From Candidatus Nomurabacteria bacterium (GTDB taxonomy: Bacteria > Patescibacteriota > Minisyncoccia > Phycocordibacterales > UBA9973), in contig JARIGO010000013.1 of the NCBI GenBank assembly GCA_029288805.1, positions 1 through 35,786 of the forward strand: a stretch of DNA of 35,786 nt, written 5' to 3'. Positions 4,892 to 11,302 of this stretch are shown in pieces. A program made the translations under genes and the position numbers. How positions within the stretch are numbered: the stretch's first letter is position 1; each line of letters begins with the position of its first letter. The notes beneath the pieces were generated by a model, which searched no databases, was not told where the DNA came from, and worked only from the letters and a program-made list of their open reading frames with translations.

Positions 4892-5642
4892 GAAACAACT
4901 GAAAAAGAACAGCCCATGGCGCAGTGTCCCTACATGGCTTCGTGTGGTCATTGTTGTGGCCAGCGTGCTTATTGTTATCGCTATCGCAACGGCAATAGTG
5001 AAGAAAATTGCGGCTCGTACTGTACCTGTGTACGGAGGAGTGATAAAAGATGAATTTCTTTCTCGGAGCGCATTGATCAAAAAGGTAACAGCACAGGAAA
5101 GCACGCTTGTGTCATATGATGCTGAACTTACAACTTTACAGCAATTACAAAATGAAAACACTGCATTGAAAGCAGAGCTCGGAAGAGACGCAGGACAAAA
5201 AGGCGTACTGGCTGACGTTATGACATTACCGAATCGCAGTTTTTATGACACGATGTTGATCGACGCAGGAAGTGCTGAAGGTATAAAGGTTGGACAAGTG
5301 GTGTATGCATTTAACAGTGTGGCGCTCGGTACCATCTCAAGTGTTGATGCACATGATGCTACGGTTTCTTTATACAGTGCTCCCGGTAGACAGACTTCCG
5401 GTAATGCTGTTGGCAGTGACGTGGCGGTGACATTGATCGGTCGGGGGTCAGGGGAGTATGAAGTGCAGCTTCCACGTGACGTGCCATTTACCACTGGTTC
5501 CATGATTGCCGCACAATCCATCACGCCGGCTTCTCTTGCTGAGATAGAAAGAATCATCACTGACCCTCGCGATCCGTTCCAACGTTTGCTTGCAAAAGTT
5601 CCAGTAAACCTTCAGGCACTGAAGTGGGTGATAGTGAGATAA
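4878..5642 (+). CDS. mreC: Rod-shape determining protein MreC
   Basis: MreC is the bitopic scaffold that links MreB filaments to extracytoplasmic cell-wall synthases. The 254-residue protein has a basic cytoplasmic N-terminus (MPRYKKQLKKNSPWR), one membrane helix at about 21-43 (LRVVIVVASVLIVIAIATAIV), a coiled-coil stretch at about 68-100, and the beta-rich MreC domain with MLIDAGSAEGIKVGQVVYA. It overlaps the mreB end by 14 nt, and its stop codon overlaps the tgt start (TAATG). No mreD follows. In its place is tgt, so the usual mreBCD order is broken after mreC. Confidence 0.93.
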   Translation: MPRYKKQLKKNSPWRSVPTWLRVVIVVASVLIVIAIATAIVKKIAARTVPVYGGVIKDEFLSRSALIKKVTAQESTLVSYDAELTTLQQLQNENTALKAELGRDAGQKGVLADVMTLPNRSFYDTMLIDAGSAEGIKVGQVVYAFNSVALGTISSVDAHDATVSLYSAPGRQTSGNAVGSDVAVTLIGRGSGEYEVQLPRDVPFTTGSMIAAQSITPASLAEIERIITDPRDPFQRLLAKVPVNLQALKWVIVR

Positions 5643-6829
5643 TGCTTAAATTTTCTATACATAAAAAACTAGACGGTACGCTTGCGCGAGCGGGGGAAAT
5701 TGAAACCAAGAACGGTAAGATTTTGACGCCGGCATTTGTGACGGTGGGAACAAAAGCAACGGTGAAGTCACTGACATCTGAACAAATCAGAAGCCTGAAT
5801 GCGCAAGTAGTGTTGGCGAATACCTACCATTTATATTTGCAGCCAGGGGAAGATATCGTTGCCAAGGCTGGAGGCTTTGGTCCATTTATGGATTGGCATG
5901 GTCCGACTATGACAGACTCGGGAGGGTTTCAAGCATTTTCACTTGGCGCGGCATTTGGTACTGCGGTAAGCAAGATTTCAACATCTGACGTTGAAGTCAG
6001 CGACACGTCAGTCAATCCAGGACAACTCGCAAAAGTAACCGACGAAGGCGTGACATTCAAGTCACATCTTGATGGTAGCAAGCACTTGTTCACACCAGAG
6101 TCTTCAATGGAAATACAATGGAAACTTGGTGCTGACATGATTTTTGCATTTGATGAATGTACCAGTCCAACAGCTCCATATGACTACCAAAAGAAATCCC
6201 TGGCACGTACGTATGAATGGGCCAAGCGTAGTCTAGAACGACATGAAGCGTTGGATACAGAAAAACAGCAATCGTTGTTTGGTGTAGTGCAAGGTGGACG
6301 ATATCAAGAGCTCCGTGAAGAAGCCGCTCGCACTATCGGTGCGCTGCCTTTTGATGGTTTTGGTATTGGAGGATCATTTACCAAAGAAGATATTGGCACT
6401 GCCGTAGGGTGGGTTAATGCGTTGCTGCCAGAAGACAAGCCTCGCCACTTGCTTGGTATTGGTGAACCGCTTGATCTTTTTAATGCCGTTGAAGCTGGCT
6501 GTGATTTGTTTGATTGTATTGCGCCAACACGCATGGCACGTCACGGTACATTGCATACCAAGGATGGGCGCATCAACATCAAGAATGCAAAATTCGTTGA
6601 CCAGTTTGTGCCACTCGATGAAGATTGCACCTGTTATACCTGCACGCATCACACTCGTGCGTATCTTGCACACCTCTTTCGCGGGGAAGAAATGACTGCC
6701 GCATCGCTTGCTTCAATTCACAATCTTCACTTCATCTTGCGTTTGGTGGAAAACATCCGTGCGTCCATCTTGGATGATAGCTTTCATCAGTATAAAAAAG
6801 AATTTTTGGAACGGTACTACAAAAAGTAA
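5642..6829 (+). CDS. tgt: Queuine tRNA-ribosyltransferase (tRNA-guanine transglycosylase)
   Basis: Tgt exchanges guanine-34 of GUN-anticodon tRNAs for the queuosine precursor preQ1. The TIM-barrel enzyme is complete (395 residues). It has the substrate-binding acid in TDSGGFQ (D92), FGVVQGGRYQELR, GFGIGGSFTKED, the nucleophilic Asp in LFDCIAPTRMARHG (D291), and the zinc site CTCYTC (C329, C331, C334) with a following His. I use the ATG at 5642, whose A is the last base of the mreC stop, rather than the in-frame GTG at 5624. The overlap implies coupling to mreC. A terminator hairpin follows. No queuosine synthesis genes are in the window, so preQ1 may be salvaged. Confidence 0.96.
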   Translation: MLKFSIHKKLDGTLARAGEIETKNGKILTPAFVTVGTKATVKSLTSEQIRSLNAQVVLANTYHLYLQPGEDIVAKAGGFGPFMDWHGPTMTDSGGFQAFSLGAAFGTAVSKISTSDVEVSDTSVNPGQLAKVTDEGVTFKSHLDGSKHLFTPESSMEIQWKLGADMIFAFDECTSPTAPYDYQKKSLARTYEWAKRSLERHEALDTEKQQSLFGVVQGGRYQELREEAARTIGALPFDGFGIGGSFTKEDIGTAVGWVNALLPEDKPRHLLGIGEPLDLFNAVEAGCDLFDCIAPTRMARHGTLHTKDGRINIKNAKFVDQFVPLDEDCTCYTCTHHTRAYLAHLFRGEEMTAASLASIHNLHFILRLVENIRASILDDSFHQYKKEFLERYYKK

Positions 6830-6857
6830 AAGACCCCTCTCAGGTGAAAGGGGTCTT
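6830..6857. terminator. Bidirectional terminator between tgt and the 25-residue peptide gene
   Basis: AAGACCCCT (6830-6838) and AGGGGTCTT (6849-6857) form a perfect 9-bp stem. Rightwards the tail is only ATTTGTT. Leftwards the tail is T-rich (TTTTACTTTTTG on the minus strand). It can end both tgt and the convergent minus-strand peptide gene. Confidence 0.75.
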
Positions 6858-6862
6858 ATTTG

Positions 6863-6940
6863 TTATGGGATTGCTATGCTTGCCATGATTACAAAGGCCG
6901 TTGCAACTACTATTGCTAAGACAAAGAGAAAATTTTTCAT
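6863..6940 (-). CDS. 25-residue hydrophobic membrane peptide
   Basis: On the minus strand an ATG at 6940 opens a 25-codon frame ending in TAA (6863-6865). The peptide begins MKNFLFVLAIVVATA and ends in ASIAIP: one charged residue (Lys2), then an uninterrupted transmembrane helix. The gene has its own near-consensus promoter (TTGACA, 16 nt, TATGAT at 6958-6985) and a terminator hairpin beyond its stop, so it is a complete transcription unit. A second 25-residue membrane peptide lies at 34958-35035. I know of no named family. Small membrane subunits and type I toxins have this look, but no antitoxin RNA is evident. Confidence 0.6.
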   Translation of the reverse strand: MKNFLFVLAIVVATAFVIMASIAIP

Positions 6941-6957
6941 AACAGTGGGTTTTTTAA

Positions 6958-6985
6958 ATCATATAACCCTAAATTATTTTGTCAA
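6958..6985 (-). promoter_or_regulatory. Promoter of the 25-residue peptide gene
   Basis: The minus strand reads TTGACA (6980-6985), a 16-nt spacer and TATGAT (6958-6963). The start should be near 6951, giving a leader of about 11 nt without a Shine-Dalgarno sequence. It diverges from the promoter of the giant hydrolase gene. Confidence 0.7.
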
Positions 6986-7017
6986 TAATATGAATGGTAA
7001 GTAATCAAATATTTATA

Positions 7018-7023
7018 TATACT
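7018..7023 (+). promoter_or_regulatory. -10 box for the giant SGNH protein, leaderless arrangement
   Basis: TATACT ends 7 nt before the ATG at 7031. Transcription would begin at or one base before that codon. This favours 7031 over the in-frame ATG at 7025, which would be upstream of the transcript. No -35 box or Shine-Dalgarno sequence is visible. Confidence 0.6.
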
Positions 7024-7030
7024 AATGAGT

Positions 7031-10000
7031 ATGAGGTTTCGACATTTTTTATTTTTATCAGTTCTCTTGGTCGGTGTTCTTTTTATCAACAACACGCAGG
7101 TTGCGCATGCTGCCATAACTGATACCGTCTCCGGTGCAACAAACGGATATAGCCTTCGTTTGGTTAAGGCATCGTATAACGGGGCGCTTGTAAAGATTCG
7201 TCGTACTGATGGCGGAGAAGCCAATGTCTTTCCCGATACCTCGGGCAACTTTTCGCTAAGCTCACCGGTAACTGTCTTGTCTGGTTCAAGTACCGCAACG
7301 ACACTCAGTGCCTTTGTGAGTGGCACCGATGCATATGTTGAGGCATGGTATGACCAGGTTGGGGGAAACAATCTCAATCAGGCTACGCAGTCTGCTCAGC
7401 CTAAGATTGTGTCTGCGGGTGCCATCCTTACAAACGGTATTACTGGCAAGCCAGCGCTGAGTTTCAATGGTACGAACAATACGCTCACCAGTGCTTCAAC
7501 ATTTTCAATTACCCAACCGTTTACGGCAACAATGATAAGTGCTGGAAATACGCAGTCTCCAGCTGCGCGCGTGTTTGATATTGGTAGTAACACTGCATTA
7601 TACCAGGTTGGTTCAAGTGGTGGTATGTATGCCGGTTCGTATCTGAGCGGTAGTGTACAGTCTGCCCCGTATGTCGCCCGCCAGATGACCATGGTCTATA
7701 ATACGACCTCTTCCCAGTTCTACACCAATGGTACATTGGTTACTTCCGGAACCACGGGGTCCAACAATCCAAGCGGTACGCTTTCGCTTGGAGGTGTTTC
7801 CAGTTACTACTTTAATGGAGAGATTTCCGAATTCATTCTCTTCACTGGAAACTTAAATGCCACTCCTGCAAACCGCCAGGCTGTTGAAACGGATGAATTG
7901 AATGCGTATGTTATCCAACCCTCTGCCACCGCTCTCGGTGTTGCCGGTGCTACCAACGTCTACAGTTTGCGCAAGCTTGTAACCTCGTACTCCGGCCCGC
8001 TGGTGCGCATCCGCCGGACCGACGGCGGGGAGGCGGACGTGTATCCGGATGCCGGTAATGGCTTTTCCCTCAGTTCTCCTGTCACTATAATTTCAGGTGG
8101 TTCGCAGGCAACGGTACTTAATGATTTCATTACTGGAACCAATGCATATGTCGAGACATGGTATGACCAAACAGGAAACGTTAATGTCACTCAGTCTACT
8201 CAGGCCAATCAACCTCAGATTGTCTCTTCTGGTTCGGTTATAACCAATGGTGCTACCAACAGACCAGCCGTATCGTTCAACGGTACTAGTGATACGCTTA
8301 ATAGCGCATCTTCAGCAGTATTCCTTCAGCCTATAACCGTCACTTCTGTTTCGTCCGTTACCAATCAAACTACCGGTACGTCCCGCATGTTCTCATTGGG
8401 TAGCTCTGGGGCCAATATCCTGTATCAGGCTGGATCAAGTGGTGGTATGTATGCCGGTTCATTTTTGGCAAGCACGGTGCAGTCATTGCCGTATGCCACT
8501 GAACAGGCATCGATGGTCTTCAACACTACGGCCTCACAGATGTATGTTGATGGTACAAGCATAGGAAGCGGCACTACGGGTAGCAATTATGCAAGTGGGG
8601 GAATATATCTAGGCTCAAGTCTTGGAGCAGGTCCGTATTTCAACGGTACCATTTCTGAATTCATCATTTATAACACTGCGCTTGGATCGACCAATAGACA
8701 GTCAGTCGAAAACAACCAGATAATGACATTCGTTACTCAGCAGACTGCCACTGCGCTTGGGGTCACGGGAAGTGTTGGTTCGTACGGTCTTCGCCAACTT
8801 GTAACCTCGTACTCCGGCCCGCTGGTGCGCATCCGCCGGACCGACGGCGGGGAGGCTGATGTCTATCCGGACACATCTGGAAATTTTTCAACAACTTCTT
8901 CCATTACTGTTATATCAGGTTCTAGTGGCGCTACAACGCTCAGCGCATTCATTGCTAGCACCGATGCATTTGTAGAAATATGGTATGACCAGACCGGTAA
9001 TCAGAATGTCAGTCAGGCAACTCAGGCAGATCAGCCGAAAATAGTCTCTGCGGGTACTATCCTTACCGGCAGCTCGTCCAACAGGGCAGGTGCGTTATTT
9101 GATGGTAATCAGGATATGTTGGAAAGCTCAAGCTCGCTGTCACTTTCACAACCGGTTAGCATATTCATGGTTTCCGAAGGCAATACGCAGTCACCAACGT
9201 CTGGTCGACCGTTTTCTCTCGGTGCTACTCCAAATAATATAACGTATCAGGATGGTTCAAGCGGAGGCATGTACGGAGGAACTTTTCTTGCCAATACCCA
9301 GCAATCTGTGCCGTATACAGTACAAACTACAACATTGCTTTTTAATGGATCCTCATCCCAAATGTATGTTAATGGCAGTCTTATAGGAAGCGGCAATGCG
9401 GGCAGTAACAGCGTTAACGGTCCTTTGGTATTGGGTTCCAATGTTGCCAATGCGAATAGCCTGCTCTACTTCAACGGGACGATCTATGAATTCATTTTGT
9501 ACAACAAACTTGTTTCTGGGACTGAACAGCAGACTGTCCAGAACAGTGAAGGCTCTTTCTTTATTAATAACACCACCGAGCCGATGACCATTACCAGTCC
9601 TTCACGTCTGGTTTCAAGCGCACCGCTTGAGGCGACTACTTCCTATATCGATCAAAAAGGTCTCAACGTGTCCATTCCATTCATCCAGACAAGTACTACA
9701 CTTAATGTTAGCGCCTCAGTTGGTTCCAATCTTGTTCCAAACGGCGGAGGGGTGAAGTTTGTACTTACCAATAACAGTTCCTCTCAGCAGGTTGCCATAT
9801 ATGACATGTCTGCTCCTTATACGGCATCATTCACGAATCTTTCGAAAGGAACATATACCTTGGATACATATGTTGTCGATAGCAATCACGTTGTGCAGAG
9901 TGGCACGACCCTTCACGACCAGGCTACCAACATTGGTATTGGTGACATCTACGTAGCTATTGGTGACTCGATTACAAAAGGAGCAAACGGTATTTCGGAT

Positions 10001-11302
10001 ACGCAGTGCGTTACTTCTGGCGGCACCATTACCGACTGGACACAGTCCTTGCCGGGTACGGTCTCCAATGACGACAGAAACTTTTGTCAGTGGTCTTCGC
10101 AAGAGCCAAAATATTTCAAGAGCTGGATGCCTGAGCTTAACAATAAGCTTGAGTCATACAATGGATATCCGGTATTCATTCTTAATGAAGGGTATGGGGG
10201 ATATACTGCCGCTGGATACATTACCGATCCAATGGGTACCACTGCATGGCAAAACCGGGTAGCTAGCCTTTCGCCAAATAAGTTTTTGGTTATGCTTGGT
10301 ACTAATGATACAAGCTCCGCCTCCGTATACTCATCAAACATGAATACTATTATCAGCACGCTCGAATCCAATTATGCTGCAAACCCTTCAAGTATTTATG
10401 TTGCCAAAATGCCATACGCGGCTCCTCGCCCGGTCGTGCAGCCTTATCTCGCATCTATCGATAGTTTGATAAGCAGTGATCATTTGAATTATGGTCCTAA
10501 CTTGTGGACATTCTTCTACAATCATCAGGACCAGCTCAGTCAGGTTGATAACATTCACCCAACCGTAGCTGGGTATCTGAACATTGCGCGTCTCTGGGCG
10601 CTGTCTATCATCAGTCCAACGGGGGTAGCTGCCGCATCGACATCAAACGGCATTGCCATTAATTGGAGTGGGCTTTCCTCATATGATGCCATTCCAAATG
10701 GCACCTCGGTCATCAGTGGCTATAGAGTGAAGTATGGCACTTCTCCAGGCAACTATACCTCAACCTTTGATGCTGGAAACGCTACGTCTGCCACCATCAC
10801 GGGTATTACATCCGGTATGACATATTATTTTGCCATCGATGCCTATAGTCTGCTGCCAGATAATACTGCAGGAAGTACCTATACTGCACCAGCAGGATAC
10901 ACGGGCGACAACTATTCGTTCCAATCGCCGGAGATTTCACTGGTATATTCACCGACAGCGGCCCAGTCGCAGGGTGGATACCTTTCGGGGGGAGGAAGAC
11001 CAGTAACTGTTCCTGTGGCCAATCCTCAGGCAATAGTTTCAGGCGGTGTGGTTGCAGCCATAACTAAGGTATTAAAATTCGGCATGATTGACAGTCAGGT
11101 TCGATTGTTACAGCAATACCTCAATACGCACGGATTTATTGTTGCAAAAAATGGCGCAGGATCTGTAGGTCATGAGACCACTACATTTGGTCGTGCAACT
11201 AAAATTGCAGTCATGACCTTACAAAAAAAGGCAAAATTAACACCGGACGGTGTCGTAGGAAGCAAAACCTTGGCTTATATACATTTGACAGCTTCTATAT
11301 AA
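7031..11302 (+). CDS. Giant secreted multidomain protein: three ABFB-like modules, SGNH hydrolase, Fn3, peptidoglycan-binding domain
   Basis: This 1423-residue protein starts with a signal peptide (FLFLSVLLVGVLF ... AHAA). Three tandem modules follow, at about residues 34-290, 300-570 and 575-843. Each has the pattern YSLR...SYxGxLVxIRRTDGGEA, WYDQxG, QPxIVSxG and FNGxIxEFIxY, resembling the concanavalin-like fold of arabinofuranosidase B. A beta-rich linker leads to an SGNH/GDSL esterase domain: GDSI (S980), NEGYGGY, LGTND (N1092) and DNIHP (D1173, H1176), so the catalytic residues are intact. A fibronectin III domain (about 1195-1295) and a PG_binding_1 domain (LLQQYLNTHGF ... TPDGVVGSKTL) end it. 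It is probably a wall-bound carbohydrate esterase or adhesin. Modules 2 and 3 share a 59-bp identical GC-rich segment. The alternative start is 7025. Confidence 0.88.
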   Translation: MRFRHFLFLSVLLVGVLFINNTQVAHAAITDTVSGATNGYSLRLVKASYNGALVKIRRTDGGEANVFPDTSGNFSLSSPVTVLSGSSTATTLSAFVSGTDAYVEAWYDQVGGNNLNQATQSAQPKIVSAGAILTNGITGKPALSFNGTNNTLTSASTFSITQPFTATMISAGNTQSPAARVFDIGSNTALYQVGSSGGMYAGSYLSGSVQSAPYVARQMTMVYNTTSSQFYTNGTLVTSGTTGSNNPSGTLSLGGVSSYYFNGEISEFILFTGNLNATPANRQAVETDELNAYVIQPSATALGVAGATNVYSLRKLVTSYSGPLVRIRRTDGGEADVYPDAGNGFSLSSPVTIISGGSQATVLNDFITGTNAYVETWYDQTGNVNVTQSTQANQPQIVSSGSVITNGATNRPAVSFNGTSDTLNSASSAVFLQPITVTSVSSVTNQTTGTSRMFSLGSSGANILYQAGSSGGMYAGSFLASTVQSLPYATEQASMVFNTTASQMYVDGTSIGSGTTGSNYASGGIYLGSSLGAGPYFNGTISEFIIYNTALGSTNRQSVENNQIMTFVTQQTATALGVTGSVGSYGLRQLVTSYSGPLVRIRRTDGGEADVYPDTSGNFSTTSSITVISGSSGATTLSAFIASTDAFVEIWYDQTGNQNVSQATQADQPKIVSAGTILTGSSSNRAGALFDGNQDMLESSSSLSLSQPVSIFMVSEGNTQSPTSGRPFSLGATPNNITYQDGSSGGMYGGTFLANTQQSVPYTVQTTTLLFNGSSSQMYVNGSLIGSGNAGSNSVNGPLVLGSNVANANSLLYFNGTIYEFILYNKLVSGTEQQTVQNSEGSFFINNTTEPMTITSPSRLVSSAPLEATTSYIDQKGLNVSIPFIQTSTTLNVSASVGSNLVPNGGGVKFVLTNNSSSQQVAIYDMSAPYTASFTNLSKGTYTLDTYVVDSNHVVQSGTTLHDQATNIGIGDIYVAIGDSITKGANGISDTQCVTSGGTITDWTQSLPGTVSNDDRNFCQWSSQEPKYFKSWMPELNNKLESYNGYPVFILNEGYGGYTAAGYITDPMGTTAWQNRVASLSPNKFLVMLGTNDTSSASVYSSNMNTIISTLESNYAANPSSIYVAKMPYAAPRPVVQPYLASIDSLISSDHLNYGPNLWTFFYNHQDQLSQVDNIHPTVAGYLNIARLWALSIISPTGVAAASTSNGIAINWSGLSSYDAIPNGTSVISGYRVKYGTSPGNYTSTFDAGNATSATITGITSGMTYYFAIDAYSLLPDNTAGSTYTAPAGYTGDNYSFQSPEISLVYSPTAAQSQGGYLSGGGRPVTVPVANPQAIVSGGVVAAITKVLKFGMIDSQVRLLQQYLNTHGFIVAKNGAGSVGHETTTFGRATKIAVMTLQKKAKLTPDGVVGSKTLAYIHLTASI
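7976..8034 (+). repeat. 59-bp GC-rich direct repeat, copy 1
   Basis: This segment in ABFB-like module 2 is identical over 59 bp to 8798-8856 in module 3. It is about 73% G+C by my count, far above the surrounding gene. It encodes the TSYSGPLVRIRRTDGGEA segment of the module. Module 1 has the same protein motif in ordinary codons (around 7165-7220). Confidence 0.9.
8798..8856 (+). repeat. 59-bp GC-rich direct repeat, copy 2
   Basis: The second copy of the 59-bp perfect repeat, 822 bp downstream of the first and in the same reading frame. Similarity drops sharply after GGGGAGGC, where the two copies go on to GGACGTG and TGATGTC. A sharp edge of this kind is expected of gene conversion. Confidence 0.9.

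Follow-up and report, generated by a model that had tools for sequence, protein, structure and literature searches.

A candidate 25-residue membrane peptide gene with its own promoter and terminator in the tgt–uvrB interval of a Nomurabacteria-type genome

The E. coli proteins YohP (27 amino acids) and YncL (31 amino acids) are small single-transmembrane membrane proteins, shorter than 50 amino acids, built on a single helix and with almost no soluble part (PMC12719787). We describe a predicted peptide that resembles them in each of these respects, encoded by a minus-strand open reading frame (ORF) of 25 codons in the genome of a small, uncultured Nomurabacteria-type bacterium. The window, meaning the whole stretch of DNA analysed, comprises 35,786 nucleotides (JARIGO010000013.1; contig C24 of a 0.68-Mb genome). 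The ORF lies between tgt (5624–6829, plus strand) and the gene for a 1425-residue secreted protein (7025–11302, plus strand), after which comes uvrB, and is accompanied by the following elements:

6985..6958, minus strand: sigma-70-type promoter, TTGACA-16-TATGAT, 11 of 12 matches, the best promoter-like site in 5000–9000
6941..6957, minus strand: the 17-nucleotide stretch from the −10 element to the ATG, TTAAAAAACCCACTGTT, with an A-tract at the expected 5′ end of the transcript and no Shine–Dalgarno (SD) sequence
6863..6940, minus strand: 25-codon ORF read 6940→6863, ATG start, TAA stop, product MKNFLFVLAIVVATAFVIMASIAIP
6857..6830, both strands: terminator-like hairpin of 12 base pairs (bp) with a 4-nucleotide loop, flanked by the stop codons of tgt (6829) and of the ORF (6863)

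We think it probable, if well short of certain, that these elements make up a real gene that is very young or evolves fast, and that its product is a small, N-in membrane protein that crosses the bilayer once and works through contact with a second membrane protein. An initial annotation, made from the sequence alone, had proposed an unannotated single-helix peptide, served by a promoter and terminator of its own, between tgt and the giant hydrolase gene; the frame and the promoter are both present as it described, and the proposal is backed by promoter enrichment, the position of the ATG, the A-tract leader and hydropathy. The product MKNFLFVLAIVVATAFVIMASIAIP forms one predicted hydrophobic helix whose sole charge is Lys2, so that an N-in topology is expected from the positive-inside rule, and its maximum 17-residue hydropathy is 2.95. 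Dinucleotide shuffling of the 100-nucleotide transcript body between the −10 element and the hairpin (n = 20,000) never gave an ORF of at least 22 residues near the start with a 17-residue hydropathy of at least 2.9, and only 25 of 205,788 sliding 100-nucleotide intergenic windows of this genome hold a qualifying ORF. Promoters with at least 11 of 12 matches occur 20 times in its intergenic DNA against an expectation of 3.15 ± 2.2, an enrichment of about sixfold. A slightly wider count finds 26 such sites, 19 of which have a downstream ATG-initiated ORF of at least 15 codons at about 8–50 nucleotides; nearly all of these ORFs are the starts of longer genes, and the peptide ATG stands at 17 nucleotides. 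Both the hydrophobicity of the peptide and its promoter are thus beyond chance.

The way genes start in this genome gives the short leader a context. An SD-like sequence precedes only 15 of 362 genes of at least 200 amino acids, making its absence at the peptide start normal here, and −10-like hexamers peak 6 nucleotides before start codons (40 versus about 6 per position), together indicating that leaderless mRNAs are widespread. A literature search on leaderless mRNAs and SD sequences in Patescibacteria found no paper. In a second class of genes the −10 element lies 14–50 nucleotides upstream, and an A-tract falls within the first 12 nucleotides after it at 19 of 36 such leadered promoters versus 0 of 12 tRNA promoters (Fisher p = 0.0013, an optimistic value because the same data had suggested the A-tract criterion); behind any TATAAT-like intergenic site the frequency is 14%. 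By its sequence the peptide leader, expected to be about 10–12 nucleotides long with ATG-AAA-AAT following TTAAAAAACCCACTGTT, belongs to this A-tract class, and an mRNA is therefore preferred over a non-coding RNA. Other small hydrophobic ORFs (33–62 amino acids) also lie behind A-tract-leader promoters, at C2:2536–2682 (plus strand, 48 amino acids), C25:3644–3745 (minus strand, 33 amino acids), C23:16788–16943 (plus strand) and C18:16663–16851 (minus strand).

The ORF closes 5 nucleotides ahead of the hairpin. Because the hairpin is T-rich on both flanks (TTTTACTTTTTG on the minus-strand side, ATTTGTT on the plus-strand side), it probably acts as terminator for tgt as well as for the peptide gene. 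The initial annotation was right to place here a terminator with a T-rich side facing the peptide gene, but under-counted its stem at 9 bp. RNA folding of 6951..6822 (minus strand) yields −33.5 kcal/mol with a z-score of −3.1, driven by the 12-bp hairpin.

From these features a course of expression can be proposed. RNA polymerase with the housekeeping sigma factor would start about 7 nucleotides past TATGAT and make an mRNA of about 125 nucleotides with an SD-less, A-rich leader of 10–12 nucleotides; the ribosome would initiate at the ATG (AUG AAA AAU), as predicted for the other leadered genes of this genome, and the hairpin would end the peptide transcript and, read from the opposite side, that of tgt. 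By analogy with known small membrane proteins, the 25-residue helix would insert through YidC or SecYEG with its Lys2 end inside. Having no soluble part, we speculate, it could act only through packing against a further membrane protein or through an effect on the bilayer, and its likeliest role would be to assist or regulate a membrane complex; the role of small membrane regulator suggested by the initial annotation is possible.

Several results weigh against a protein-coding gene. The length of the ORF alone is reached in 4% of shuffles. Its synonymous codon score of −3.7 bits lies close to background (−2.4 ± 2.7) and about 2.6 standard deviations under the coding expectation (+2.0 ± 2.2), so coding is not favoured; we read this as mild evidence against a long-adapted coding gene, which would fit a young one. 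The A-tract association is directional only in the closest relative, G003 (345 kb; 7 of 21 gene versus 0 of 8 tRNA promoters, p = 0.14), in addition to the after-the-fact criterion noted above. Pfam gave no family match and the profile libraries assigned the peptide no function. No homologue was found in the 11 other members of the genus, in 60 relatives or in 384 genomes of the class, nor in plasmids, phage DNA or viral contigs (the viral contigs by a degenerate pattern); the searches returned nothing beyond weak similarities between generic helices, two of which involved SecG. Conservation and dN/dS (the ratio of non-synonymous to synonymous substitution) therefore lend the peptide no support, and neither the promoter nor the ORF occurs in any relative compared, the nearest having 87% Tgt identity. 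A young, lineage-restricted peptide is the best overall reading.

Using the Tgt protein as query, we collected 80 loci and read the interval between tgt and uvrB. All 12 genomes of the genus carry tgt. In 7 of the 12 (loci L007, L009, L011–L014 and L016) tgt is directly followed by a plus-strand gene for an unrelated small membrane protein of 42–63 amino acids with a KTLIYFLIFT core, faintly like Prli42 (NCBIfam E 0.43); this family resembles the peptide as a small membrane protein in the same slot but differs in strand and sequence. Membership of the peptide in it was considered and rejected, as the family is absent from this genome. Two of the 12 have minus-strand small membrane proteins behind A-rich leaders (L119 in G009, 80 amino acids; L125 in G011, 54 amino acids), arranged like the peptide gene and with no evident sequence relation to it or to each other, and two members carry neither type of small protein. 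At L006 and L009 a PemK/MazF-like gene, identified by eye only, lies after tgt. As judged from these loci, the small genes kept in the slot differ from species to species, and the predicted peptide is an orphan among them.

Four other explanations draw on the same evidence. A short non-coding RNA of about 125 nucleotides, running from promoter to hairpin with an incidental frame, would account for a promoter and terminator that look real, for the fold z-score and for the weak synonymous signal; it is nonetheless unlikely, since the fold is nearly all due to the terminator hairpin, so hydrophobic a frame would very rarely arise by chance precisely where the start is expected, A-tract leaders are not seen at tRNA promoters, and no Rfam match reaches its gathering score. 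We give the same low weight to a remnant, in which a secreted protein lost its body as the tgt–uvrB slot was rearranged and left behind its promoter and a signal-peptide-like N terminus. The resemblance of the sequence to a signal peptide, including an S-I-A site close to the end, the clear variability of the slot within the genus and the want of homologues all suit this idea, whereas the frame closes just before the hairpin with nothing coding-like after it, and neither the promoter nor the leader looks decayed.

A type I toxin-like peptide under antisense RNA control, also raised by the initial annotation, appears a shade less likely again. Size (under 60 amino acids) and hydrophobicity fit (PMC8309996), but the suggestion went unsupported: no plus-strand promoter above 8 of 12 matches crosses the peptide gene, no complementary stretch longer than 15 nucleotides occurs elsewhere in the genome as a candidate antisense antitoxin RNA, the peptide has no repeat copies in the genome, and so short a leader leaves no room for the 5′ regulatory structure usual in such systems. 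A cationic C terminus is lacking too, though IbsC, ShoB and DinQ likewise have none. Least likely of all is mimicry of SecG, in which the peptide would copy the second SecG helix and modulate the Sec translocon. Two of the three matches outside this genome among the 60 relatives are SecG helix 2, and the peptide aligns to the genome's own SecG better than does the shuffled peptide (P = 0.003). Against this, the matches lie only at E 0.06–0.5, generic helices of V, A, I and F match easily, the SecG of G007 was chosen as the best match so that its P is biased, and DNA-level similarity to the genome's own secG is absent, for which reason a DNA duplication of secG was also rejected as the origin of the peptide gene. 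We keep the resemblance as a lead only; its fullest form, in which the peptide arose de novo or evolved fast as a translocon micro-regulator imitating SecG helix 2, in a slot where each species has its own unrelated micro-membrane protein, would be a long shot.

The 1425-residue neighbour carries three LamG-like repeats, a GDSL/SGNH hydrolase, an fn3 domain and a peptidoglycan-binding domain. Just ahead of its start lies one further element:

7018..7030, plus strand: divergent −10 element TATACT with a 7-nucleotide spacer to ATG 7031, seen in the sequence and in keeping with the genome-wide −10 peak 6 nucleotides before starts

ATG 7031 is thus the probable true start, on a putative leaderless mRNA. 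No full-length relative of this protein was found in 119 genomes of the family. A mobile unit of peptide and giant neighbour was considered and set aside: outside this genome, in those 119 family genomes, the neighbour is matched only in its C-terminal fn3/peptidoglycan-binding part, and therefore no common unit can be traced.

Candidate-phyla bacteria have few genes, and the length cut-offs used in annotating them conceal proteins of such size. Our analysis suggests that micro-genes can be picked out within a single genome by their promoter, leader type and start position, with no recourse to conservation, and that this genome may hold several others.

Among known systems, the peptide shares size, hydrophobicity and a single predicted helix with the membrane type I toxins (the Ibs, ShoB, Hok and Fst/Ldr groups) but differs in its single copy, its C terminus and the absence of any family match, and we do not file it with them because no antisense RNA gene was found. 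Its LFVL-x-I-x-VA-x-x-F pattern resembles helix 2 of the genome's own SecG, which is encoded elsewhere (C18:21744–21929); it is not a SecG, however, lacking helix 1 and the loop with the RRG motif and giving no match to the profile PF03840. From YohP and YncL it is set apart by phylum, by the absence of detectable sequence homology and by its short, A-rich, SD-less leader. With fewer than 50 residues, one hydrophobic helix and its own promoter, leader class and terminator, the predicted peptide belongs broadly with the small membrane proteins of bacteria, as an orphan new to that kind.
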